From Paramacrobiotus metropolitanus (Eukaryota; Tardigrada; Eutardigrada; Parachela; Macrobiotidae): a DNA stretch of 64,000 bases. Of this stretch, positions 37,226 to 55,542 are shown in pieces. The stretch is taken from the NCBI RefSeq assembly GCF_019649055.1, contig NW_026570236.1, positions 744,001 to 808,000 of the forward strand, read 5' to 3'. The first letter of the stretch is position 1. Each line of letters begins with the position of its first letter. The notes beneath the pieces are model-generated. The model was given only the letters and a program-made list of their open reading frames with translations. It was not told the DNA's origin and did no database searches. The position numbers were made by a program, and so were the translations under genes.

Positions 37226-37231
37226 GGTGAG
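37226..37231. repeat. target-site duplication GGTGAG, left
   Basis: Six bases immediately before the left terminus AGAAGAG. The same six follow the right terminus at 55537-55542. A 6-bp duplication is the Polinton hallmark. Confidence 0.9.
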
Positions 37232-38306
37232 AGAAGAGTAACGGGTGATATGGAATAAAATCTATTTTACATATTTTATCTAATTTTTATATTTATTACG
37301 TAAAATAACTATCTAACTTATATTTTATTACTACTTTTGCTCTTCTCTGAGTTAAGATTGTGTTTTAATATGAATGCTCGTGATTTGACATATGTCTTTT
37401 ACATAGGCATCTCATTATGCGCAAGTTTGGGTTAAGATTGTGTTTTAATGATTCTCGTACACATGTTTCCTTGGCGTCTGACCTGTCAAAACATGCTCAT
37501 TCCTTAATAACTCGCAACACACAGTTTCTTTAGATATCTAACTGCTGGTATACTCCCATGTCGTATCCTAGGGGTACAGATTACTTACAAACATCGGAAC
37601 ATTTTGTTTCTACCTACTCATATTATTCGTACAGTTCTGCAACATACTCATTTCTAAGGTACATCTGACTGTTGTATGTATGCCAGTTTCCATAAACATC
37701 TCATTGTCCGCAAGTGTGTAAGGCCCCAAAACGTTTTACAGTGCGTATCTTTCACAAACATCTGACGAGCTGCGTGCACTTTTTGTTACACGTTATTTGT
37801 TTGATTGTGCACAATTTTCATGAACTTTGCGATTTTAGCACACGTATCGCAATTGTCATCTGTGATCTGTCAGTTTCTGTAGACATTTAACCACGCACAC
37901 GTCCATACGCTATTCTTCGTGCCTCTAAGTCTCGACATTTCTGTCGACAACTGCATTTCTATCTGAACGGGCGTCGTACAATTGCCATATTAAACAGTAC
38001 ACTTGCACTGAAGACTCTAAAACCATCCATCAAACTGCATGTTCTGCCCTTTTGGCAACTTAGACTACACAATTTTTCATAGGAAACTGTAAAAAAGTTG
38101 CAGTAGATGTGAAGCTGCATAGCTTATAGTAAAAGGTATTTAGCACGCTTTGTATTCCATTCTCGTCTCATTGATTGTTTTGTTCCTAAAGGTTTTCTTT
38201 TTTTGTTTTCGAGCTAAGCATTTATGTGTTAACTGGATTACTGGCCGTTACCCGCCATTTGCTATTGTTGTGCTTGCGGATTACTAATCGCAGGTAAGCA
38301 GAAACC

Positions 38307-41300
38307 ATGTTTAACTTGGATGAAGTTTTGCGCTTTTATGCCGAGTTTCTGCAACAATGGTTGCATGAAAACTGGCCAGAAAAGGCAGAAGGGCTGTTTT
38401 CTCTCGATGCAATTGCCAATCTGTACGGGAAACAAAAGCTCATTCGTGAATACCGGAAGCTAACGCCATACAGAGCGGTGGATCAAGGGACTGGAATCCA
38501 CAGACTGGACAAAGTACTTTACTCTGGAAAAGATCAACGAAAAGCAAACAAAGAAATTTTCAACATCGGAAATCACGTATCGCGTTAAAATCGAAAACCT
38601 CAATATGAAATTCGATCCTGTCACCTCAATGGAAGCAATGCCCAAAGTGTTCGAAGCTATATTCAGTGTCATTACGAAAGAATTCGGACCAGACGACAGA
38701 ATCGTCATCCTTCTCTCCAGTCATACACTCAACCGCAAAGCTGATCTTCATATGAAAAGGTTACAAGATTTCAAGATTGACGACCTTATGGATATGATGG
38801 TCATGATTAATTCAAGCAACTCATTCTGCATCGACGAAAGTTTTCAAATTACAATTGTTCGGACCGTAATACCGGCTGGTGGAAGAAGAAGAAAACATAT
38901 CCATACTACGGTTGACCGAAAACGATTCAGCTCGTCTATTGTTACAGTGACAACAGGAAACAACCTTTGCTTACCTGCAGCATTGGCGCTCGGTCATTTC
39001 AGAAACACTCATGATGTCAGCGGCAAAGACAAGATGAAATGGAAAGCTTTAACTAATCCTAGAGGGCGTAAGTTGGAAAAACTCGCGTGTCAGTTGGTCC
39101 AAGATGCGGGTCTCACTATTGGAAAAATGTTTGGGTTGGAAGATTTGCCGGCTTTTCAACGCGTTTTAAAGTGTCAAGTCAAGGTTATTTCTGTGCAGGA
39201 AGGAAACACTCTTATCGCACAAGTGCCGGAGAAGAAGAAACCGGGAATGAAGCAGATTTACTTAATGTACGATAAAAATCATTTCGATCTGATAACTAAA
39301 CCATCTGGATACCACATGCAGAGTTATTATTGCACAAACTGCGATCAAGGATACGGCCGAAAGACAGATCATCGCTGTGAACAGAGATGCAACATGTGTT
39401 ATCGCAGTAAAAGCGATTGCAAAGCCAATGACCCAAAGTTATGCCCCGATTGTGGACGAACTTTCACCAACAAAGAGTGCTTTGATGTGCACAAGACTTT
39501 ACGAAAAAATGGAAGGACGCTTTGCGAGGATCTTTTCATCTGCTCCAAGTGCAACAAGTTTGTGAATATGCTCAATCGCCCGGATCAGGTTCATAACTGT
39601 GACGAAATGTACTGCTCAACCTGCAAAGACTGGGTGCCTCAAAATTCGCATAAATGTTACTTCCAACCTCTTGAACCAGAAGAATTGGATGCTAATCCGA
39701 AGTACATTTTCTTTGATTTCGAAACTTACACGTCGGTCGATGGTACTCACATTCCAAACTACGTCGTCGCGCAGTATTGCTGCGGAAAGGAATATCGTTT
39801 TCCTCCTGATGGTACTCCTCTAGCCGGTTATGATGTCATCGCAAACTTTTGCAAATGGCTTTTCCGTGAAGAGCATCGTGGCTACACGATAATTGCGCAC
39901 AATCTGCGAGGATACGATGGACATTTCATTTTGGCCCACATGATAGACAATAACTTGAAGCCGGACATTCTTTGCCGTGGTAGTCAGCTGCTGAATATTC
40001 GCTACAAAGCTTTGGACATGAACGCCGTGGATACGCTTAACTTTGTGCAGCTGGCTTTGTCTAAATTTCCTAAAGCGGTCGGTCTTAAATCTGATGAGAA
40101 GAAAGGTGACTTCCTCACAAAATTAATCAGCCGGAAAATTGGGATAAAATTATTCCTTCCCAAACCCGTCTTCTTACGGTATCGAAGCAATGTGTGCCGC
40201 CAAGCAGGTCGAATTCTTTAAATGGTATACAGGCGAAAAAACAAGAAGCAAGGACGTTTTGACTTTCGGCAGCAGTTAACCAGCTACTGTTCAATGGACG
40301 TGTCAGTTTTGCGGAAATGTGCCTTAAAATTCCGAGATGATTTTATGGCTCTAGCGTGCATTGATCCCTTTAAATCCGTAACCATTGCTTCAGCTTGTTT
40401 GAAATTTTTTCGAACTTTTAATCTCCGGAAGGAAGAAATCGGAGTCATTTCAGCTCACGGTTACCAAACCAACAGAATAACCAGCATGGAAGCAACTCAG
40501 TGGCTGACCTGGGTTAACAAAACACAAGCTGATTGGCGAATCGAGCATGGGCGAAATGGAAAAGAGAAACGTATTAATGATTATTTTGTGGACGGCTACG
40601 ATCAAGTTACCAACACGGTTTACGAATATAACGGATGTGTTTTTCATGGACATCCGGACTGCACCAACGCAAATGACCGTTCACCTTTATCAAACAAGAC
40701 TATGCAAGAAGTTTACGAAGAATACCGGATCAAAGTTTGTTCTATAAAAGCTCGGCGCTTCAACTTTGTGGAAATGTGGTCATGCCAGTGGCGCGAGCAG
40801 TTAAAAAATCCAAGCATTCGGCAGTATATGAACGATATGTCCCTCCGCAGTCCTCTTCAACCAAAAGAAGCATTTAAGGGCGGCCGTACTAACGCAAACA
40901 GGCTACTTTACGAATGCGGTCCGAATGAGAAGATCCATCACTATGATATCGTCTCTTTGTATCCTTATGTCAACAAGAATTGTGTGTATCCAATCGGGCA
41001 TCCGAAAATTATAACAGCAGACTTTAAGGATATAAGCGAATATTTTGGATTTGTAAAGTGTACAGTGCTTGCGCCGGGACAGTGCTTATTTCCTGTTTTG
41101 CCTGCAACTATAAATGGAAAGTTAATCTTCGCACTCTGCAGTAAATGTGCAGAGCTTCGGCAAAACGATTTTTGCACGCATGGCGACAAGGAGCGATTGC
41201 TGGAAGGTGTGTGGACTACTCCCGAACTGCATCATGCGATTTTACGTGGGTACAAAGTTGTTGCTGTTCATGAAGTCTGGCATTGGGAAATACGGAAAGA

Positions 41301-42230
41301 AAAATTGTTTGAAGACTTTGTTAACACATTCCTCAAAGAAAAAATTCAGGCAAGTGGATGGCCAAGTAACTGCACCACTGAAGCGGAACGGTTGGAGTTT
41401 GTCATAAAGTGAAGGACGTGGAAGGTATTGAACTGGATTCCTCGCAAATCGAAGACAATCCAGGCCGAAAAGCAGTTGCAAAGTTGATGCTGAACTCATT
41501 CTGGGGCAAATTCGGACAAAATGACAATCTTCATCAGACGAAAATTTTCTTCAAGCCGAAAGATTACTATGACTTCCTCGTATCAAAATCTACCTGGATC
41601 CACAATGTCCATATCTTCAGTCCTGAATGTGTCATGGCAACTATTTCCAAAATCGACGACTATCTAGAAGGATCGTACACCGCCAATATCCCTATCGCAG
41701 CCTTTACGACGAGTTATGCCCGGCTGAAACTTTTGGATATGCTTGAGAAGTTAGGTGAACGAGTACTTTATTTTGACACAGATTCCGTTATTTTTGTTCA
41801 GCGGTCAGGCGAGTGGCAGCCACCAACAGGTACGATGCTTGGAGAATGGAGCAATCAGTTAGAATCGGGAGAGTCATATTGTCAAGTTTATTTCTCTGGG
41901 GCCCAAAGTTTATTATTACGAAACAGATACAGGAAGGATAGAAAGTAAAATTAAAGGCTTTACTCAAAATGGATATACGGAGAATATCCTAGCCGATTCT
42001 GGGAAGGGCTGGTTCAAACAGGCCAGAGTATGGACTACAACCTTTGGAAATCGCTCTTGAAGAATGATGGCCAAACGGTGCGCGTTGTCTATCCCGAAAC
42101 CATCAAAAGAAATGTCAACACTCATGAAATCAGCACCGTTCAACTGACGAAAACTCTCAGGCGAGTATACGATAAACGGATGCTGTTGGATGATTATAGT
42201 ACTTTACCGTTTGGAACTCGCATGGAGTAA
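38307..42230 (+). pseudogene. PolB: protein-primed family B DNA polymerase (Polinton PolB), left copy
   Basis: Coding similarity runs from MFNLDEVL at 38307 to the stop at 42230, about 1300 codons. In order: an N-terminal region; Cys-rich zinc-binding clusters (CxxC pairs at about 39320-39660); exonuclease motifs DFET (about 39715), HNLRGYDG (about 39900) and YCSMD (about 40283); an embedded YNGCVFHGH motif; then polymerase motifs DIVSLYP (about 40950), KLMLNSFWGKFG (about 41480) and FDTDS (about 41770). The interval between the first two polymerase motifs fits the insertions of protein-primed enzymes. The frame is broken by single-base homopolymer differences near 38460, 38500, 40110, 40150, 41410 and 42000 that the right copy does not share, and by one break near 41870 that it does. 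The enzyme would copy element DNA from a terminal protein. Confidence 0.88.
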
Positions 42231-43049
42231 GTTAGAGTGTTCTTTCTGTACTTGTACAAAAAACAAAAAAAAAAAATTCGCATTATTTTTTTTTTGCCAG
42301 CTAGCGCCATATTCGAAGGGATGCGCAGGGACATGATGTCGTTGGAGCAAGTGTCGTAGTTTTCGATTTTGCAGTTTGTAACTGTTAGCATATAATAAAA
42401 ATAAAAATAAAAAAAAAATTTAAAAAAAAAAAAGCAAAAAAAAAAAAGAGGGCGAATGCCCCAAATCTGTACCGGCTTTAGCTTGTCTGCGGCCAGGTTG
42501 AAATCGTTATGGCTTTGGGCTTCGTCGCTGAAACAAAAGCCGCTAGCGGTAATATTTTGTGCTGCTGTATTATGGTGTTATATAACTGCATGGAAGCAAC
42601 CACAAAATATGATGAAACGGGGAGTAAATTGGCAGTGCAAGGTACTGCATCGAATATACTAGAAGAATAATGCTAGAGAAGTTACAAAAATCGGAAGAAT
42701 GGTTAGCAAATGCGACCAGATGATGCGCGTTCCGTTCATTGAGCTTGTATTCAAATCGAAACATATGTAAAATCTACGGGAAACTCATATGAAAAACTTC
42801 CGTTTTGCAACATTTCGATGAAAAACTTGTAGTTTTCCGTAGTCAAAAAAAAACGGAGGCTTTCGTTTTGGGATTCTCATTGACTTAACATACATTTTCG
42901 TAACTTTTAGGAGTTTTCGTTTTCACTTTTGGGAGTTTTTTGCTTCAGTTTCTTTGTTTTGTAAAACTTCCATTTCCGCACTAGCAAAAGAAATAAATAT
43001 ATTGACTTACTTTCACGCTTTTTGAAGAACGACAATCCATCTTACGCAC

Positions 43050-43800
43050 ATGTTCAAAGTGGCATTTCTAACTTGCATGTTTGCCGTGACATTTTCCAAC
43101 TTCGTTGCATGTTTGCCGTTACATTTCCAACTTTGTTGCATGTTTGACATGACATTTTCAACTTTCTTGCATGTTTGACGTGACGTTTCTAACTTTATTG
43201 CATGTTTGCCGTGACATTTCCAACTTTCTTGTATGTTTCACGTGACAGTTCTAACTTCCTGCATTTGCCGTGACATTCCTAACTTTCTTAGATGTTTCAC
43301 GTGACATTTCTAACTTTGTTTCATATTTGACATGACAATCCCAACTTTCTTGCATGTTTGCCGTGACATTTCAACTTTTTGCATGTTTCCGTGACATTTC
43401 TAACTTCACTGCATGTTTGCCGTGACATTCCTAAATTTTCTGCATGTTTGGCGTGACATTTCTAACTTCACTGCATGTTTGCCGTGACATTTCTAACTTC
43501 ACTGCATGTTTGCCGTGACATTCCTAAATTTTCTGCATGTTTGGCGTGACATTCCCAAATTTTCTGCATGTTTGGCGTTGCATTTCTAACTTTTGTTGCA
43601 TATTTGACATGACAATCCCAACTTTCTTGCATGTTTACCGTTACATTTCCAACATTGTTGCATGTTTGCCGTGACATTTCCAACTTTGTTGCATGTTTTG
43701 CCGTGATATTTCCAACTTTGTTGCATGTTTGGCATGATATTTCCAACTATGTAGCACTTGTGACGTGACATTCCCAAGTCCCTTGCATATGTGACACGAC
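43050..43800 (+). repeat. minisatellite, unit about 27-29 bp (left arm)
   Basis: Many degenerate copies of a unit like GCATGTTTGCCGTGACATTT plus CTAACTT. The block is about twice as long as its mirror copy at 49320-49705. Confidence 0.85.
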
Positions 43801-43929
43801 ATTTTATGCTTTCCCACAAGTCAAGTATAATATTTTTGGCTTCTTTAAATGTTTTGGTACGGCACTCTGAACTTCCAACAGGTTTAGTGTGATATGCTCA
43901 AGTTTTGCAATCGTTTCTTTTTTCGATAT

Positions 43930-44850
43930 GAATCGAATGCATGTTTGACGCCAGTCAGCTAATTGCACATCATTAAGTTACAGTAGTAATGGGAACGGAA
44001 TGCACACTTGGAGCCAGTTAGAAGTTGGAATGTGGTAATTATCGCAAATGTAAGGGAACACCGACAGTAATCATGGGAATGGAATGCATGTTTGGCGTCA
44101 GTCAGATAATTACACATCAGTAGGTTACACTAATGATGGGAACGGAATGCACACCTGGCGTCAGTTAGACGTTGGAATGTGGTAATTATCGCAAATGTAA
44201 GGGGACACCGACAGTAATCATGGGAACTGAATGCATGTTTGGCGCCAGTCAGATAATTACACATCGTTAAGTTACACTAATGATGGGAACGGAATGCACA
44301 CCTGGCGTCAGTTAGACGTTGGAATGTGGTAATATTCGCAAATGTAAGGGGACACCGACAGTAATCATGGGAACGGAATGCATGTTTGGCGCCAGTCAGA
44401 TAATTACACATCGTTAAGTTACACTAATGATGGGAACGGAATGTACACCTGGCGTCAGTTAGACGTTGGAATGTGGTAATTATCGCAAATGTAAGGGGAC
44501 ACCGACAGTAATCATGGGAACGGAATGCATGTTTGGCGCCAGTCAGATAATTACACATCGTTAAGTTACACTAATCATGGGAACGGAATGCACACCTGGT
44601 GTCAGTTAGACGTTGGAATGTGGTAATTATCGCAAATGTAAGGGACACCGACAGTAATCATGGGAACTGAATGCATGTTTGGCGCCAGTCAGATAATTAC
44701 ATCGTTAAGTTACACTAATGATGGGAACGGAATGCACACCTGGCGTCAGTTAGACGTTGGAATGTGGTAATTATCGCAAATGTAAGGGAACACTGACATT
44801 AATCATGAGAACGGAATGCTTGTTTGGCGCAAGTCAGGTGCATTCCCGCC
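43930..44850 (+). repeat. tandem repeat, unit about 147 bp (left arm)
   Basis: About six copies of a 147-bp unit containing AGATAATTACACATCGTTAA and GGAATGTGGTAATTATCGC, with spacing read from successive copies at about 44097, 44242, 44390, 44537 and 44682. Each unit has two related halves (GGGAACGGAATGCA occurs twice per unit). Confidence 0.85.
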
Positions 44851-45720
44851 CTCTTTCCTTATGCCTGACACGACATTTTAGACTTTCTTACAAGTGTGGC
44901 GCGACATGCTCAAGAGTTTCGTTGTTACGCCATCATGTCTGCCGTCAGTGCAGGTGCACTCTTACGGTCTTTTCATTATGACTGACGTGACATTCTGGAC
45001 TTTCCCACAAGTGTGGCGCGCCATTCTCAAGAGTTTCGATGTTATGCTATCATGCCTGGCGAAAGTGCAGGTGTACTTCCATTCTCTTTCTTATCCTTGA
45101 CAAAGCATTCTCAACTTTCTTACGTGGTCGACGCGACATTCACAACTCTCGTACATGTTTGACGTGGCACTCCCAACTTTCTTACATGATTGATTGTTTT
45201 CTTGCATGCTTGACAAGGCATTCACCACTTTCTTGCTTTTAACGTGGCATTCTTAATAATTTTGTTATACATGACGCCAGTGTAGGTACATCCACAACTT
45301 TGCCGCTTGATTGACGCGACATTCTCGAGAATTTCTTTGCTATGTCAACATGCCAGTAAAGCCATTCCCACTCACTTTTCTTTATGTCTGGTGTGTCTCC
45401 ACAAGAGTGGCGCGAGAGCTTAAAGACTTTGTCGTTATGTCAATAAGTTCGGCGTTAGTTCAGATGCATTCCCACTGTTCAGATGCCGCCAGACATAATG
45501 TCTGGCGCTGGCGTCTGGCGCGTTATGTCTGGCGCGGCATTCTCAGTTTTATCATAGGCTCCATGCAACATTCATAAATTTCTCACACGTTTTCGCGCGT
45601 TATTTTCGACTTTCTTACCAGTGTTACGCGACATTCTAATCTTTATACATGTATGACTCGACATTCTGAACTTTATCTCGTGCTGGGCACTGCAATTCCA
45701 CATGTTTTGACACGACATTC
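44851..45720 (+). repeat. diverged repeat zone with nested palindrome (left arm)
   Basis: Irregular sequence in which words like CGACATTCT...ACTTTCTTAC recur every 40-60 bp, suggesting an old decayed minisatellite. It includes the palindrome GCCAGACATAATGTCTGGC at 45488-45506, followed by further TCTGGCGC copies. The mirror zone is 47400-48300. Confidence 0.6.
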
Positions 45721-45789
45721 AACTTTCAAGTTTGTGTTTCGGAAAGGTTCATGATGATGCATACTGTGTACAACTTTGCCATCATTCCT

Positions 45790-46500
45790 GAAGCAAAAAA
45801 TTTTTTTTTGTGACCTTTCGTGACCTTTTGCATGATGTCGAAGTCGCAACTGATTGGGCATTTGGTACAACTTTGCATCCTAAACATTTCTACACAAAAT
45901 TTATAGGTGACCTTTCCGTGACCTTTTGCATGGTGTCGAAGTCGCAACCGATTGGGCATTTGGTACAACTTTGCATCCTAAACATTTCTACACAAAAAAT
46001 TTATAGGTGACCTTTTCGTGACCTTTTTGCATGGTGTCTGAAGTCTCAACCGATTGGGCATTTGGTACAACTTTGCATCCTAAACATTTCTACACAAAAA
46101 TTTATAGGTGACCTTTCCGTGACCTTTCTGCATGGTGTCTAAAGTCGGAACCCATTGGGCATTTGTACAACTTTGCATCCTAAACATTTCTACCAAAATT
46201 TATGGTGACCTTTCGTGACTTTTGCATGTCTGAAGTCGGTTTATTGGGCATTTGGCACAACTTGCATCCTAAACATTCTAAAATTTATGGTGACCTTTCC
46301 GTAATTTTGTTTTTTGTTTCTGAAGTCGCAACTGATTAGATGTACAACTTTGCATCAAAAACAAAGTGCCACCTTCTACATGTGCCAAATCGGTTTATTT
46401 GCGTTAGTAATTTTGCATTCGACAACTAGTAAAATTTTTGTGTGACCTTTCGTAACTTTTTTTTTCATGTCTGAAGTCGGTTTGGTGGTTATTCAGCACA
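45790..46500 (+). repeat. tandem repeat, unit about 100 bp (left arm)
   Basis: Several copies of a unit containing GGTGACCTTTCCGTGACC, CGATTGGGCATTTGGTACAA and CATCCTAAACATTTCTACAC. Copies become more degenerate toward the element centre. Confidence 0.8.
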
Positions 46501-46629
46501 ACTTTGCATCTTGAACAAGCCAAAGTAACACCTTCAGACAAATTATTTGCGTTTAGTATTATTCGAACCAAATTATTTGCTTTGTATTATCAACAACGTC
46601 AAAACTGCTTCATCATATCATCAAAAAAG

Positions 46630-46740
46630 ATCGAGATGCCAGCACTGAAGAAACAATGGATGATTTCAATGCTTTGTTCAACAAAATTCAGACGTTGCCG
46701 TAATCATCCACTGTTTCGATTCAGTGCTGGCATCTCGATC
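46630..46740. repeat. central hairpin of the palindrome
   Basis: GATCGAGATGCCAGCACTGA (about 46630-46649) is inverted at about 46721-46740. The inner sequence is also partly self-complementary (GAAACAATGGATGATT with AATCATCCACTGTTTC), leaving a loop of roughly 35 bases. This is the symmetry centre of the 18-kb element. Confidence 0.8.
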
Positions 46741-46899
46741 TTTTTGATGATTATGACCAGAAGCAAATTTTGAACAAAATTCTAGTTGAATAATACTAAA
46801 CGCAAATAAATTGGTTCGAAGGTGTTACTTTGGCTTGTTCAAGATGCAAAGTTGTGCTGAATACCCCACCAAAAACCGACTTCAGACATGAAAAAAAAA

Positions 46900-47330
46900 A
46901 AGTTACGAAAGGTCACACAAAAATTTTACCATAGGATTGTCGAGGATGCAAAATTATACTGAATGCACAAACAGAACCGATTTCAGGCACAATGTAGAAA
47001 GGTTAACAAAAGGTCACAAAAAAAAAGGTTTTGCATAAATTTTTTTTTTTTGGATGCAAAGTTGTACAATGCCTAATCAGTTGCGACTTCAGAAACCATG
47101 CACAAAGGTCACGGAAAGGTCACCTATAAATTTTTGTATAGAAATGTTTAGGATGCAAAGTTGTGCCAAATGCCCAATGGGTTCCGACTTCAGACACCAT
47201 GCAGAAAGGTCACGGAAAGGTCACCTATAAATTTTTGTGTAGAAATGTTTAGGATGCAAAGTTGTGCCAAATGCCCAATCGGTTGCGACTTCGGACATCA
47301 TGCAAAAAGGTCACGAAAGGTCACAAAAAA
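46900..47330 (-). repeat. tandem repeat, unit about 100 bp (right arm)
   Basis: Mirror of the left 100-bp block, with roughly three clear copies instead of five or more. Confidence 0.75.
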
Positions 47331-47399
47331 AAAATTTTTGCTTCAGGAATGATGGCAAAGTTGTACACAGTATGCATCATCATGAACCTTTCCGAAACA

Positions 47400-48300
47400 C
47401 AAACTTGAAAGTTGAATGTCGTGTCAAAACATGTGGAATTGCAGTGCCCAGCACGAGATAAAGTTCAGAATGTCGAGTCATACATGTATAAAGATTAGAA
47501 TGTCGCGTAACACTGGTAAGAAAGTCGAAAATAACGCGCGAAAACGTGTGAGAAATTTATGAATGTTGCATGGAGCCTATGATCAAACTGAGAATGCCGC
47601 GCCAGACATAACGCGCCAGACGCCAGCGCCAGACATTATGTCTGGCGGCATCTGAACAGTGGGAATGCATCTGAACTAACGCCGAACTTATTGACATAAC
47701 GACAAAGTCTTTAAGCTCTCGCGCCACTCTTGTGGAGACACACCAGACATAAAGAAAAGTGAGTGGGAATGGCTTTACTGGCATGTTGACATAGCAAAGA
47801 AATTCTCGAGAATGTCGCGTCAATCAAGCGGCAAAGTTGTGGATGTACCTACACTGGCGTCATGTATAACAAAATTATTAAGAATGCCACGTTAAAAAGC
47901 AAGAAAGTGGTGAATGCCTTGTCAAGCATGCAAGAAAACAATCAATCATGTAAGAAAGTTGGGAGTGCCACGTCAAACATGTACGAGAGTTGTGAATGTC
48001 GCGTCGACCACGTAAGAAAGTTGAGAATGCTTTGTCAAGGATAAGAAAGAGAATGGGAGTACACCTGCACTTTCGCCAGGCATGATAGCATAACATCGAA
48101 ACTCTTGAGAATGGCGCGCCACACTTGTGGGAAAGTCCAGAATGTCACGTCAGTCATAATGAAAAGACCGTAAGAGTGCACCTGCACTGACGGCAGACAT
48201 GATGGCGTAACAACGAAACTCTTGAGCATGTCGCGCCACACTTGTAAGAAAGTCTAAAATGTCGTGTCAGGCATAAGGAAAAGAGGGCGGGAATGCACCT
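47400..48300 (-). repeat. diverged repeat zone (right arm)
   Basis: Mirror of 44851-45720, including the palindrome GCCAGACATTATGTCTGGC at 47628-47646. Confidence 0.6.
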
Positions 48301-49200
48301 GACTTGCGCCAAACAAGCATTCCGTTCTCATGATTAATGTCAGTGTTCCCTTACATTTGCGATAATTACCACATTCCAACGTCTAACTGACGCCAGGTGT
48401 GCATTCCGTTCCCATCATTAGTGTAACTTAACGATGTGTAATTATCTGACTGGCGCCAAACATGCATTCAGTTCCCATGATTACTGTCGGTGTCCCCTTA
48501 CATTTGCGATAATTACCACATTCCAACGTCTAACTGACACCAGGTGTGCATTCCGTTCCCATGATTAGTGTAACTTAACGATGTGTAATTATCTGACTGG
48601 CGCCAAACATGCATTCCGTTCCCATGATTACTGTCGGTGTCCCCTTACATTTGCGATAATTACCACATTCCAACGTCTAACTGACGCCAGGTGTACATTC
48701 CGTTCCCATCATTAGTGTAACTTAACGATGTGTAATTATCTGACTGGCGCCAAACATGCATTCCGTTCCCATGATTACTGACGGTGTCCCCTTACATTTG
48801 CGAATATTACCACATTCCAACGTCTAACTGACGCCAGGTGTGCATTCCGTTCCCATCATTAGTGTAACTTAACGATGTGTAATTATCTGACTGGCGCCAA
48901 ACATGCATTCAGTTCCCATGATTACTGTCGGTGTCCTCTTACATTTGCGATAATTACCACATTCCAACGTCTAACTGACGCCAGGTGTGCATTCCGTTCC
49001 CATCATTAGTGTAACCTACTGATGTGTAATTATCTGACTGACGCCAAACATGCATTCCATTCCCATGATTACTGTCGGTGTTCCCTTACATTTGCGATAA
49101 TTACCACATTCCAACTTCTAACTGGCTCCAAGTGTGCATTCCGTTCCCATTACTACTGTAACTTAATGATGTGCAATTAGCTGACTGGCGTCAAACATGC
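48300..49200 (-). repeat. tandem repeat, unit about 147 bp (right arm)
   Basis: Mirror of 43930-44850 with about the same number of units. Confidence 0.85.
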
Positions 49201-49319
49201 ATTCGATTCATATCGAAAAAAGAAACGATTGCAAAACTTGAGCATATCACACTAAACCTGTTGGAAGTTCAGAGTGCCGTACCAAAACATTTAAAGAAGC
49301 CAAAAATATTATACTTGAC

Positions 49320-49705
49320 TTGTGGGAAAGCATAAAATGTCGTGTCACATATGCAAGGAACTTGGGAATGTCATGTCACACATGCAACAAAGTTGGAAAT
49401 GTAACGGCAAACATGCAAGAAAGTTGGGATTGTCATGTCAAATATGAAACAAAGTTAGAAATGTCACGTGAAACATCTAAGAAAGTTAGGAATGTCACGG
49501 CAAATATGCAGGGAAGTTAGAACTGTCACGTGAAACATACAAGAAAGTTGGAAATGTCACGGCAAACATGCAATAAAGTTAGAAACGTCACGTCAAACAT
49601 GCAAGAAAGTTGAAAATGTCATGTCAAACATGCAACAAAGTTGGAAATGTAACGGCAAACATGCAACGAAGTTGGAAAATGTCACGGCAAACATGCAAGT
49701 TAGAA
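49320..49705 (-). repeat. minisatellite, unit about 27-29 bp (right arm)
   Basis: Mirror of 43050-43800 but only about half as long, so the arms differ in copy number. Confidence 0.85.
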
Positions 49706-50537
49706 ATGCCACTTTGAACATGTGCGTAAGATGGATTGTCGTTCTTCAAAAAGCGTGAAAGTAAGTCAATATATTTATTTCTTTTGCTAGTGCGGAAATG
49801 GAAGTTTTACAAAACAAAGAAACTGAAGCAAAAACTCCCAAAAGTGAAAAAAAACTCCCTAAAAGTTACGAAAATGTATGTTAAGTCAATGAGAATCCCA
49901 AAACGAAAGCCTCCGTTTTTTTTTGACTACGGAAAACTACAAGTTTTTCATCGAAATGTTGCAAAACGGAAGTTTTTCATATGAGTTTCCCGTAGATTTT
50001 TACATATGTTTCGATTTGAATACAAGCTCAATGAACGGAACGCGCATCATCTGGTCGCATTTGCTAACCATTCTTCCGATTTTTGTAACTTCTCTAGCAT
50101 TATTCTTCTAGTATATTCGATGCAGTACCTTGCACTGCCAATTTACTCCCCGTTTCATCATATTTTGTGGTTGCTTCCATGCAGTTATATAACACCATAA
50201 TACAGCAGCACAAAATATTACCGCTAGCGGCTTTTGTTTCAGCGACGAAGCCCAAAGCCATAACGATTTCAACCTGGCCGCAGACAAGCTAAAGCCGGTA
50301 CAGATTTGGGGCATTCGCCCTCTTTTTTTTTTTTGCTTTTTTTTTTTTTAAATTTTTTTTTATTTTTATTTTTATTATATGCTAACAGTTACAAACTGCA
50401 AAATCGAAAACTACGACACTTGCTCCAACGACATCATGTCCCTGCGCATCCCTTCGAATATGGCGCGCTAGCTGGCAAAAAAAAAAAAATAGTGCGAATT
50501 TTTTTTTTTTGTACAAGTACAGAAAGAACACTCTAAC

Positions 50538-53500
50538 TTACTCCATGCGAGTTCCAAACGGTAAAGTACTATAATCATCCAACAGCATCCGTTTATCGTA
50601 TACTCGCCTGAGAGTTTTCGTCAGTTGAACGGTGCTGATTTCATGAGTGTTGACATTTCTTTTGATGGTTTCGGGATAGACAACGCGCACCGTTTGGCCA
50701 TCATTCTTCAAGAGCGATTTCCAAAGGTTGTAGTCCATACTCTGGCCTGTTTGAACCAGCCCTTCCCCAGAATCGGCTAGGATATTCTCCGTATATCCAT
50801 TTTGAGTAAAGCCTTTAATTTTACTTTCTATCCTTCCTGTATCTGTTTCGTAATAATAAACTTTGGGCCCCAGAGAAATAAACTTGACAATATGACTCTC
50901 CCGATTCTAACTGATTGCTCCATTCTCCAAGCATCGTACCTGTTGGTGGCTGCCACTCGCCTGACCGCTGAACAAAAATAACGGAATCTGTGTCAAAATA
51001 AAGTACTCGTTCACCTAACTTCTCAAGCATATCCAAAAGTTTCAGCCGGGCATAACTCGTCGTAAAGGCTGCGATAGGGATATTGGCGGTGTACGATCCT
51101 TCTAGATAGTCGTCGATTTTGGAAATAGTTGCCATGACACATTCAGGACTGAAGATATGGACATTGTGGATCCAGGTAGATTTTGATACGAGGAAGTCAT
51201 AGTAATCTTTCGGCTTGAAGAAAATTTTCGTCTGATGAAGATTGTCATTTTGTCCGAATTTGCCCCAGAATGAGTTCAGCATCAACTTTGCAACTGCTTT
51301 TCGGCCTGGATTGTCTTCGATTTGCGAGGAATCCAGTTCAATACCTTCCACGTCCTTCACTTTTATGACAAACTCCAACCGTTCCGCTTCAGTGGTGCAG
51401 TTACTTGGCCATCCACTTGCCTGAATTTTTTCTTTGAGGAATGTGTTAACAAAGTCTTCAAACAATTTTTCTTTCCGTATTTCCCAATGCCAGACTTCAT
51501 GAACAGCAACAACTTTGTACCCACGTAAAATCGCATGATGCAGTTCGGGAGTAGTCCACACACCTTCCAGCAATCGCTCCTTGTCGCCATGCGTGCAAAA
51601 TCGTTTTGCCGAAGCTCTGCACATTTACTGCAGAGTGCGAAGATTAACTTTCCATTTATAGTTGCAGGCAAAACAGGAAATAAGCACTGTCCCGGCGCAA
51701 GCACTGTACACTTTACAAATCCAAAATATTCGCTTATATCCTTAAAGTCTGCTGTTATAATTTTCGGATGCCCGATTGGATACACACAATTCTTGTTGAC
51801 ATAAGGATACAAAGAGACGATATCATAGTGATGGATCTTCTCATTCGGACCGCATTCGTAAAGTAGCCTGTTTGCGTTAGTACGGCCGCCCTTAAATGCT
51901 TCTTTTGGTTGAAGAGGACTGCGGAGGGACATATCGTTCATATACTGCCGAATGCTTGGATTTTTTAACTGCTCGCGCCACTGGCATGACCACATTTCCA
52001 CAAAGTTGAAGCGCCGAGCTTTTATAGAACAAACTTTGATCCGGTATTCTTCGTAAACTTCTTGCATAGTCTTGTTTGAAAAAGGCGAACGGTCATTTGC
52101 GTTGGTGCAGTCCGGATGTCCATGAAAAACGCATCCGTTGTATTCGTAAACCGTGTTGGTAACTTGATCGTAGCCGTCCACAAAATAATCATTAATACGT
52201 TTCTCTTTTCCATTTCGCCCATGCTCGATTCGCCAATCAGCTTGTGTTTTGTTAACCCAGGTCAGCCACTGAGTTGCTTCCATGCTGGTTATTCTGTTGG
52301 TTTGGTAACCGTGAGCTGAAATGACTCCGATTTCTTCCTTCCGGAGATTAAAAGTTCGAAAAATTTCAAACAAGCTGAAGCAATGGTTACGGATTTAAAG
52401 GGATCAATGCACGCTAGAGCCATAAAATCATCTCGGAATTTTAAGGCACATTTCCGCAAAACTGACACGTCCATTGAACAGTAGCTGGTTAACTGCTGCC
52501 GAAAGTCAAAACGTCCTTGCTTCTTGTTTTTCGCCTGTATACCATTTAAAGAATTCGACCTGCTTGGCGGCACACATTGCTTCGATACCGTAAGAAGACG
52601 GGTTTGGGAAGGGAATAATTTTATCCCAATTTTCCGGCTGATTAATTTTGTGAGGGAAGTCACCTTTCTTCTCATCAGATTTAAGACCGACCGCTTTAGG
52701 AAATTTAGACAAAGCCAGCTGCACAAAGTTAAGCGTATCCACGGCGTTCATGTCCAAAGCTTTGTAGCGAATATTCAGCAGCTGACTACCACGGCAAAGA
52801 ATGTCCGGCTTCAAGTTATTGTCTATCATGTGGGCCAAAATGAAATGTCCATCGTATCCTCGCAGATTGTGCGCAATTATCGTGTAGCCACGATGCTCTT
52901 CACGGAAAAGCCATTTGCAAAAGTTTGCGATGACATCATAACCGGCTAGAGGAGTACCATCAGGAGGAAAACGATATTCCTTTCCGCAGCAATACTGCGC
53001 GACGACGTAGTTTGGAATGTGAGTACCATCGACCGACGTGTAAGTTTCGAAATCAAAGAAAATGTACTTCGGATTAGCATCCAATTCTTCTGGTTCAAGA
53101 GGTTGGAAGTAACATTTATGCGAATTTTGAGGCACCCAGTCTTTGCAGGTTGAGCAGTACATTTCGTCACAGTTATGAACCTGATCCGGGCGATTGAGCA
53201 TATTCACAAACTTGTTGCACTTGGAGCAGATGAAAAGATCCTCGCAAAGCGTCCTTCCATTTTTTCGTAAAGTCTTGTGCACATCAAAGCACTCTTTGTT
53301 GGTGAAAGTTCGTCCACAATCGGGGCATAACTTTGGGTCACTGGCCTTGCAATCGCTTTTACTGCGATAACACATGTTGCATCTCTGTTCACAGCGATGA
53401 TCTGTCTTTCGGCCGTATCCTTGATCGCAGTTTGTGCAATAATAACTCTGCATGTGGTATCCAGATGGTTTAGTTATCAGATCGAAATGATTTTTATCGT

Positions 53501-54464
53501 ACATTAAGTAAATCTGCTTCATTCCCGGTTTCTTCTTCTCCGGCACTTGAGCGATAAGAGTGTTTCCTTCCTGCACAGAAATAACCTTGACTTGACACTT
53601 TAAAACGCGTTGAAAAGCCGGCAAATCTTCCAACCCAAACATTTTTCCAATAGTGAGACCCGCATCTTGGACCAACTGACACGCGAGTTTTTCCAACTTA
53701 CGCCCTCTAGGATTAGTTAAAGCTTTCCATTTCATCTTGTCTTTGCCGCTGACATCATGAGTGTTTCTGAAATGACCGAGCGCCAATGCTGCAGGTAAGC
53801 AAAGGTTGTTTCCTGTTGTCACTGTAACAATAGACGAGCTGAATCGTTTTCGGTCAACCGTAGTATGGATATGTTTTCTTCTTCTTCCACCAGCCGGTAT
53901 TACGGTCCGAACAATTGTAATTTGAAAACTTTCGTCGATGCAGAATGAGTTGCTTGAATTAATCATGACCATCATATCCATAAGGTCGTCAATCTTGAAA
54001 TCTTGTAACCTTTTCATATGAAGATCAGCTTTGCGGTTGAGTGTATGACTGGAGAGAAGGATGACGATTCTGTCGTCTGGTCCGAATTCTTTCGTAATGA
54101 CACTGAATATAGCTTCGAACACTTTGGGCATTGCTTCCATTGAGGTGACAGGATCGAATTTCATATTGAGGTTTTCGATTTTAACGCGATACGTGATTTC
54201 CGATGTTGAAAATTTCTTTGTTTGCTTTTCGTTGATCTTTTCCAGAGTAAAGTACTTTGTCCAGTCTGTGGATTCCAGTCCCCTTGATCCACCGCTCTGT
54301 ATGGCGTTAGCTTCCCGGTATTCACGAATGAGCTTTTGTTTCCCGTACAGATTGGCAATTGCATCGAGAGAAAACAGCCCTTCTGCCTTTTCTGGCCAGT
54401 TTTCATGCAACCATTGTTGCAGAAACTCGGCATAAAAGCGCAAAACTTCATCCAAGTTAAACAT
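50538..54464 (-). pseudogene. PolB: protein-primed family B DNA polymerase (Polinton PolB), right copy
   Basis: Inverted second copy of PolB, starting MFNLDEVL at 54464 and ending at the stop at 50538. It is open for the first 652 codons, through the zinc clusters and exonuclease motifs I and II, farther than the left copy. Private single-base differences break it near 52520, 52370 and 51605, at places where the left copy is open. A break near 50905 is shared with the left copy at about 41870, after the FDTDS motif. A few substitutions separate the copies, for example AND versus ASD in the zinc region. The mix of private homopolymer breaks and one shared break suggests either long-read consensus errors on top of one true mutation or neutral decay after duplication. 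Confidence 0.88.
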
Positions 54465-55536
54465 GGTTTCTGCTTACCTGCGATTAGTAATCCGCAAGCA
54501 CAACAATAGCAAATGGCGGGTAACGGCCAGTAATCCAGTTAACACATAAATGCTTAGCTCGAAAACAAAAAAAGAAAACCTTTAGGAACAAAACAATCAA
54601 TGAGACGAGAATGGAATACAAAGCGTGCTAAATACCTTTTACTATAAGCTATGCAGCTTCACATCTACTGCAACTTTTTACAGTTTCCTATGAAAAATTG
54701 TGTAGTCTAAGCTGCCAAAAGGGCAGAACATGCAGTTTGATGGATGGTTTTAGAGTCTTCAGTGCAAGTGTACTGTTTAATATGGCAATTGTACGACGCC
54801 CGTTCAGATAGAAATGCAGTTGTCGACAGAAATGTCGAGACTTAGAGGCACGAAGAATAGCGTATGGACGTGTGCGTGGTTAAATGTCTACAGAAACTGA
54901 CAGATCACAGATGACAATTGCGATACGTGTGCTAAAATCGCAAAGTTCATGAAAATTGTGCACAATCAAACAAATAACGTGCAACAAAAGTGCACGCAGC
55001 TCGTCAGATGTTTGTGAAAGATACGCACTGTAAAACGTTTTGGGCCTTACACACTTGCGGACAATGAGATGTTTATGGAAACTGGCATACATACAACAGT
55101 CAGATGTACCTTAGAAATGAGTATGTTGCAGAACTGTACGAATAATATGAGTAGGTAGAAACAAAATGTTCAGATGTTTGTAAGTAATCTGTACCCCTAG
55201 GATACGACATGAGAGTATACCAGCAGTTAGATATCTAAAGAAACTGTGTGTTGTGAGTTATTAAGGAATGAGCATGTTTTGACAGATCAGACGCCAAGGA
55301 AACATGTGTACGAGAATCATTAAAACACAATCTTCACCCAAACTTGCGCATAATGAGATGCCTATGTAAAAGACATATGTCAAATCACGAGCATTCATAT
55401 TAAAACACAATCTTAACTCAGAGAAGAGCAAAAGTAGTAATAAAATATAAGTTAGATAGTTATTTTACGTAATAAATATAAAAATTAGATAAAATATGTA
55501 AAATAGATTTTATTCCATATCACCCGTTACTCTTCT

Positions 55537-55542
55537 GGTGAG
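55537..55542. repeat. target-site duplication GGTGAG, right
   Basis: Second copy of the 6-bp duplication, identical to 37226-37231. Confidence 0.9.

Follow-up and report, generated by a model that had tools for sequence, protein, structure and literature searches.

Polinton (Maverick) elements are recognised by a PolB polymerase of the PF03175 family, which we take to be protein-primed, AG-rich inverted termini, a 6-bp target-site duplication, a retroviral-type integrase, a packaging ATPase and protease, capsid genes, and short terminal inverted repeats (TIRs) around a single-copy interior. To our knowledge, their mode of replication is inferred from the polymerase. In a survey of 134 intact vertebrate Mavericks, the terminal repeats measure 46–1447 bp and the terminal motif is (AG)3//(CT)3 (PMC8097293), to be compared with AGAAGAG...CTCTTCT in the element described here. 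Among the papers listed in literature searches, none describes a palindromic Polinton, as judged by title or abstract opening. Mirror-image defective genomes occur in adenoviruses as inverted duplications of one genome end and are by-products that need a helper; literature searches turned up nothing on them. Here, we describe an element at positions 37232–55536 of a 64,000-nucleotide stretch (the window; C16:744001–808000, where C-numbers are contig labels) of the tardigrade Paramacrobiotus metropolitanus, nearly all of which forms one palindrome with a PolB in each arm. The element is probably one copy of a mobile, palindromic, integration-defective family of Polinton derivatives, which would spread in palindromic form, be integrated in trans and be homogenised by fold-back. 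Genome searches covered the 169.8-Mb assembly (533 contigs), from which the structure of the palindromes is taken.

Architecture of the element and its sister copies

The element has exactly the boundaries that had been proposed from the sequence. Its ends read GGTGAG/AGAAGAGTAACGGG ... CCCGTTACTCTTCT/GGTGAG, so that a perfect 6-bp target-site duplication (37226–37231 and 55537–55542) brackets the inverted termini AGAAGAG...CTCTTCT, as the original prediction had stated for both the duplication and the AG...CT ends. The left arm (37232–46665, plus strand, 9434 bp) comprises, from outside to inside, the AGAAGAG terminus, a leader, PolB, tandem arrays of 31-, 147- and ~98-bp units and a central tip; the right arm (46702–55536, minus strand, 8835 bp) is its mirror image. 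The two halves align globally over 8803 columns, of which 123 are mismatched (98.6% identity), and 39 gap events account for a further 663 columns; this bears out the claim of a palindrome spanning nearly the whole element. An unpaired loop of 36 bp (46666–46701) forms the centre and falls inside the predicted 46.6–46.75 kb. Arm identity over aligned columns is 98.3–100% in each of kilobases 1–8, 96.9% in kilobase 9, and falls to 80.1% over the ~430 bp that adjoin the loop. The palindrome is imperfect close to its centre, and the stretch next to the loop is the sole strongly diverged portion of the arms. Kilobase 7, which contains much of the 31-bp array, also has the longest block of gaps (374 columns); this array has 22.8 copies on the left (43073–43777, plus strand) and 11.7 on the right (49335–49699, minus strand). 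The 147-bp array has 6.2 copies in each arm (43935–44837, plus strand; 48299–49204, minus strand). Next to the centre are 5.5 copies of a 98-bp unit on the left (45810–46337, plus strand) and 2.8 copies of a 101-bp unit on the right (47048–47324, minus strand). BLAST found no match between the two host flanks in the window (9.2 kb on the left, 8.5 kb on the right); thus, the symmetry ends at the element termini.

PF03175 was matched by all six window open reading frames (ORFs) scanned, three per arm, in agreement with the predicted protein-primed PolB. Both copies are broken by stops and frame changes. The left copy (38605–41948, plus strand) consists of ORFs 38605–40221, 40222–41412 and 41409–41948, the first two in one frame with a stop between them; the main ORFs of the right copy (50821–54464, minus strand) are 52506–54464, 51363–52373 and 50821–51624. 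These breaks may be partly due to nanopore indel errors, and no argument is therefore built on them. Every ORF of the element that has a start codon and at least 100 aa either belongs to PolB or overlaps with it, and the few further stop-to-stop frames (100–127 aa) are located within the repeats.

The first 1001 bases of the arm match the genome at 16 places. Six of these matches are full length at 99–100% identity: two in C16, two in C108, one in C6 and one in C159. C108:396443–414993 is a second complete palindrome of 18551 bp with the duplication GACCTG. C6:1974643–1992177 is a third, whose right arm ends at arm position 2383 and whose right end is missing; the ~7.8 kb that follow yielded no arm sequence, and the abrupt stop at 1992177 may be a deletion or an assembly break. 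The expectation of several palindromic copies with different duplications therefore holds in full for C108 and in part for C6, which is palindromic but incomplete. The palindromic family appears to be mobile, with two complete insertions that have distinct duplications (C16 and C108) and an incomplete one (C6); three palindromes is a minimum for this genome. The left arm of C108 contains an uninterrupted PolB (1210 aa; PF03175, E = 7.7e-47), in which DFETY, KLMLNSFWGK and YFDTDS were read by eye and are presumably its functional motifs. It is the only uninterrupted PolB in the five full-length arms: both C16 arms, the right C108 arm and the left C6 arm are interrupted, and the right C6 arm is incomplete.

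Likeness of the arms within and between copies

The arms were compared at columns with a base in every compared arm and exactly two states; columns with gaps or three states were dropped. The inner stretch, which starts where the 147-bp array ends and runs towards the centre, was aligned as the longest BLAST piece per arm (814, 795, 813 and 795 bp for C108/C6; 961–962 bp for C16). Left and right arms are 99.8% identical in C16 (960 columns), 99.5% in C108 and 100% in C6 (795 columns each), whereas C16 and C108/C6 are 91.1–91.7% identical, a difference of 8.3–8.9% (787–806 columns). Sixty-eight inner two-state sites could be scored in all six arms. Of these, 61 set the two C16 arms apart from the other four, one groups the C6 arms and four are single-arm changes. 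Since the lineages are 8–9% apart and the arms of each copy are 99.5–100% alike, either the arms were copied onto each other or the palindrome was formed anew in each lineage. Assembly smoothing can hide small differences between arms; arms as diverged as the lineages should have stayed apart, as the lineages did.

In the outer arm, half of the 32 two-state sites group arms within a copy (9 for C108, 7 for C16 versus the rest), none groups arms across copies, and 16 are single-arm changes. When the incomplete right arm of C6 is omitted, 47 sites divide into 17 within copies (10 + 7), none across and 30 in single arms. Both C16 arms carry one and the same mosaic: the outer 5.6 kb is 99.3–99.6% identical to C108 and the inner stretch 91.3–91.7%. 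The simplest reading is a single exchange, after which the arm was copied.

The centre behaves differently from the arms. C108 and C6 have a common asymmetric centre, which is 99.4% identical and inverted in one relative to the other, and 760 and 853 bp separate their paired arms, compared with the 36-bp loop in C16. The right half of C16 aligns to the C108 tip and ~650 bp beyond at 89.8–92.2% by stretch, whereas the left and right centres of C16 are 70.3, 93.3, 74.0 and 80.8% identical by stretch. The right centre of C16 is thus nearer to C108 than to its own left counterpart in three of four stretches, in an alignment that is poor because of indels and repeats. This pattern would be consistent with an old palindrome in which homogenisation had not reached the region of the loop. 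The central 751 bp has 29 matches in the genome, all within the C16, C108 and C6 loci. By eye, the C108 centre (L010:1324–1480) also contains a nested small hairpin that repeats the tip motif, perhaps the scar of a tip rearrangement.

One-armed and integrase-bearing relatives

Four one-armed elements have the same PolB end: C159 (112845–133794, duplication GTCGCT), C36 (744435–764605, GTTGGC), C130 (298951–317145, ACTGGT) and C62, whose left end was not found; coordinates are counted from the printed ends. Their PolB end and first tandem arrays are homologous to the palindrome arm, with 85–91% identity in the longest match of each. In contrast to the palindromes, PolB is present at one end only and the other half has a different interior. 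C36 and C130 are 99.3–99.8% identical in their four longest matches, and the two ends of each element have only about ten bases in common. In the far half of C159, a RING-finger ORF is located near the non-PolB end (L017:331–1146); a 486-aa ORF of C36 (L018:2224–3684) is related to it and has no Pfam match. Compared with the right arm of C16, the outer 2.4 kb of C159 is 99.5–100% identical per 400-bp stretch, then 85–93% identical, and then C36/C130-like. The switch from palindrome-type to C36/C130-type sequence occurs between arm positions 2506 and 2547.

Simple counts on aligned codons between the PolB of the left C108 arm and the one-armed relatives gave dN/dS values of 0.118 (C159, whose outer part is common with the palindromes), 0.146 (C62), 0.111 (C36) and 0.111 (C130). 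This range of 0.11–0.15 describes the comparison with the one-armed relatives, as distinct from change within the palindromic lineage.

An integrase-bearing Polinton is located at C50:661886–679719, with AGAAGA ends, the duplication GGCATC and terminal repeats that align over 192 columns at 85% identity. It encodes an integrase with a chromodomain and a TATA-binding protein (TBP), together with protease (E = 0.06) and ATPase (E = 0.027) matches below the Pfam cut-off. The TBP ORF (L038:7873–8463; PF00352, E = 5.2e-27) lies in an apparently complete Polinton. The PolB of C50 is 56% identical to that of the palindromes in amino-acid sequence. A second Polinton adjoins the C62 element from ~C62:844237 (L029 ~1238) and has homologues of five C50 ORFs, the protease-like one included. 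At its terminus, 218 columns align at 91% identity with the PolB-side end of C36, which indicates that ends are common to fuller elements and PolB-only kinds.

The 12 ORF products of C50, integrase included, were compared with the window and with the retrieved parts of C108 and C6, and none has a match there. The integrase query (tblastn) found nothing in the window, these C108/C6 parts or the retrieved one-armed relatives; it also found nothing in the Polinton-like loci L029 and L037, and so has no positive control. The same applies to the TBP and four unnamed ORF queries, which matched no locus. The ATPase-like and protease-like queries, both weak in Pfam as given above, had no match in the palindromes but matched L037 and L029, respectively. 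Pox_A32 was found at 14 places in the genome, none of which lies, by coordinates, inside the palindromes or the four one-armed elements. No C50 ORF was named capsid by Pfam, and the unnamed C50 ORFs have no match in the palindromes; the DJR capsid family PF21738 had no match anywhere in a search of the same genome, controls included. An Rfam scan of the window returned nothing, searches of the PDB returned a single match at E = 0.37, and a viral contig search gave one pattern match and none confirmed.

Several further loci were recorded. PF03175 has at least 169 genome matches (79 scored of 507 candidates). Among the listed PolB matches, convergent pairs ~38–40 kb apart were seen by eye at C111:278446–318015 and C113:25166–67592, which could be further mirror-image elements or mere neighbours, as well as a divergent pair ~20 kb apart on C1. 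An end-like match on C21 is 82% identical over 61 bases, with no PolB match in its fetched flanks. In L037 (C27:890000–899999), frames for a ribonucleotide reductase small chain, a PolB (27–46% identical in four pieces), an A32-type ATPase and a BIR domain lie side by side; they represent either a further family, Polinton-like or viral, or a host gene adjacent to one. Outside the element, nine open frames of ~320–390 aa occupy the minus strand of the window at 430–23721. All four that were scanned are rhodopsin-type receptors (7tm_1), and the array looks like a local receptor expansion.

Formation, alternatives and implications

The element has the PF03175 PolB, AG-rich inverted termini and 6-bp duplication of the Polinton/Maverick class. 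It was not found to have the retroviral-type integrase (a query without a positive control), the packaging ATPase and protease, or short TIRs with a single-copy interior. The original prediction had identified it as a Polinton, and the ends, duplication and PolB uphold this affinity. Since no C50 ORF product has a match in the palindromes, it is better described as an integration-defective derivative of a Polinton than as a full one. Like the palindromes, C50 has AG...CT ends, a 6-bp duplication and a PolB reading inward from one end, but it has a single-copy interior with an integrase and a ~190-column TIR, whereas the repeat of the palindrome is the whole ~9-kb arm and no integrase was found. 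The defective adenovirus genomes resemble it in that one end of a protein-primed linear genome is duplicated in inverted orientation and two origins are kept; they differ in being by-products, whereas the palindromes form a family inserted at several places in a genome. Foldback transposons and Y-chromosome palindromes also have long inverted repeats, and arm homogenisation is found in the latter, but both are without PolB or protein-primed ends.

The sequence shows that the element duplicates, in mirror image, the end of a Polinton-type element that bears PolB. The near-identical halves of the sister copies point to spread in mirror-image form, perhaps by way of a folded hairpin. In a single origin, the displaced strand of a protein-primed replicon would have folded back near the present tip and been copied into a mirror dimer. 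Because each arm end would be an origin, the dimer could replicate with the PolB of the family. In each round, the displaced strand would snap into a ~9-kb hairpin, in which differences between the arms would be mismatches of the stem and be repaired, or one arm would template both. Pairing would fail at the loop, so the arms would stay alike except there. The palindromes yielded no integrase, so the likely suppliers of integration in trans would be canonical Polintons, which have AGAAGA ends and 6-bp duplications. A more far-reaching version, which we regard as unlikely, is that the true replicon is a half-length, hairpin-capped DNA with a protein-primed open end and a loop-closed end, and that the integrated palindrome is its dimer. 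If so, a single template would serve to rewrite both arms in every round, which would be a replication strategy new to protein-primed elements, and the lineage would have persisted and split in this form, with branches 8–9% apart in the inner arm and the arms of each copy within 0.5%.

Several observations weigh against this single-origin, fold-back account. Two of the 68 inner sites join the right arm of C108 to the C6 arms, against the left arm of C108. Over the outer 5.6 kb, the C16 arms are 99.64% identical, compared with 99.70% for C16 right and C6 left and 99.61% for C16 right and C108 left; raw identity fails to single out the C16 pair because its left arm has many changes of its own, and the pairing there is carried by shared sites only. 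No sign of selection on PolB was found within the palindromic lineage, where the changes are too few: four PolB sites (three nonsynonymous, one synonymous) separate both C16 arms from the others. The integrase query had no positive control among the other loci, and the genome search found no one-armed parent with the central sequence. The current P. metropolitanus genome is a Canu assembly with nanopore data of N50 ~17 kb (PMC11191345), and read correction or polishing can inflate the likeness of arms. Finally, ordinary gene conversion could also homogenise arms after insertion.

The last of these alternatives, chromosomal conversion instead of replicative fold-back, we hold to be rather unlikely. 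Arm-to-arm gene conversion is known from Y-chromosome palindromes, and the nine outer-arm sites changed on both C108 arms only are as expected from it. However, the same mosaic on both C16 arms is more easily produced by whole-arm copying, and C108 and C6 have most arm states in common at different loci, which argues that that copying preceded insertion. Unlikely, too, is repeated formation, in which fold-back at a hot spot recently turned a separate one-armed parent into each palindrome lineage, so that the arms would be alike through youth and not through homogenisation. Such a history yields an identical pattern at the 61 sites, and the junctions do differ between the asymmetric centres of C108/C6 and the small loop of C16. 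A young duplication is not expected, however, to combine arms 99.8% identical in the inner stretch with a centre at 70–93%, nor a right centre closer to C108 than to its own left in three of four stretches, albeit in a poor alignment; C108 and C6 have a common centre, and no one-armed copy emerged from the search with the central sequence.

An assembly or nanopore fold-back artefact is very unlikely. The read N50 is close to the element length, some comparisons between arms show at least as many indel events as substitutions (11 against 6 for the two C108 arms), and the right arm of C6 ends abruptly. Nevertheless, two loci with different flanks each have a perfect 6-bp duplication at the outer ends, copy-specific changes distinguish the arms, and a fold-back read would mirror the host flanks, which share nothing in the C16 window. 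Head-to-head insertion of two adjacent one-armed elements, or an inverted duplication of the chromosome, would account for arms that resemble the PolB half of the one-armed elements. This is extremely improbable, given that the arms lie only 36 bp apart, no AGAAGAG terminus was read in the centre and the same architecture recurs at other loci with a common centre; the head-to-head insertion was rejected on the sister copies with a common centre and the lack of a terminus at the centre. The fold-back reading of a mobile palindromic family is thus the one we favour.

If transcribed, such a palindrome would make double-stranded RNA and might, speculatively, attract silencing. A mirror-image lineage whose arms stay alike while its branches are 8–9% apart is a prediction of a protein-primed, strand-displacing fold-back cycle, and its existence means that genome sequence can be used to test for this cycle. 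The data further point to a tier of satellites that carry PolB, exchange ends with full Polintons and may be integrated by them, all within one animal genome.

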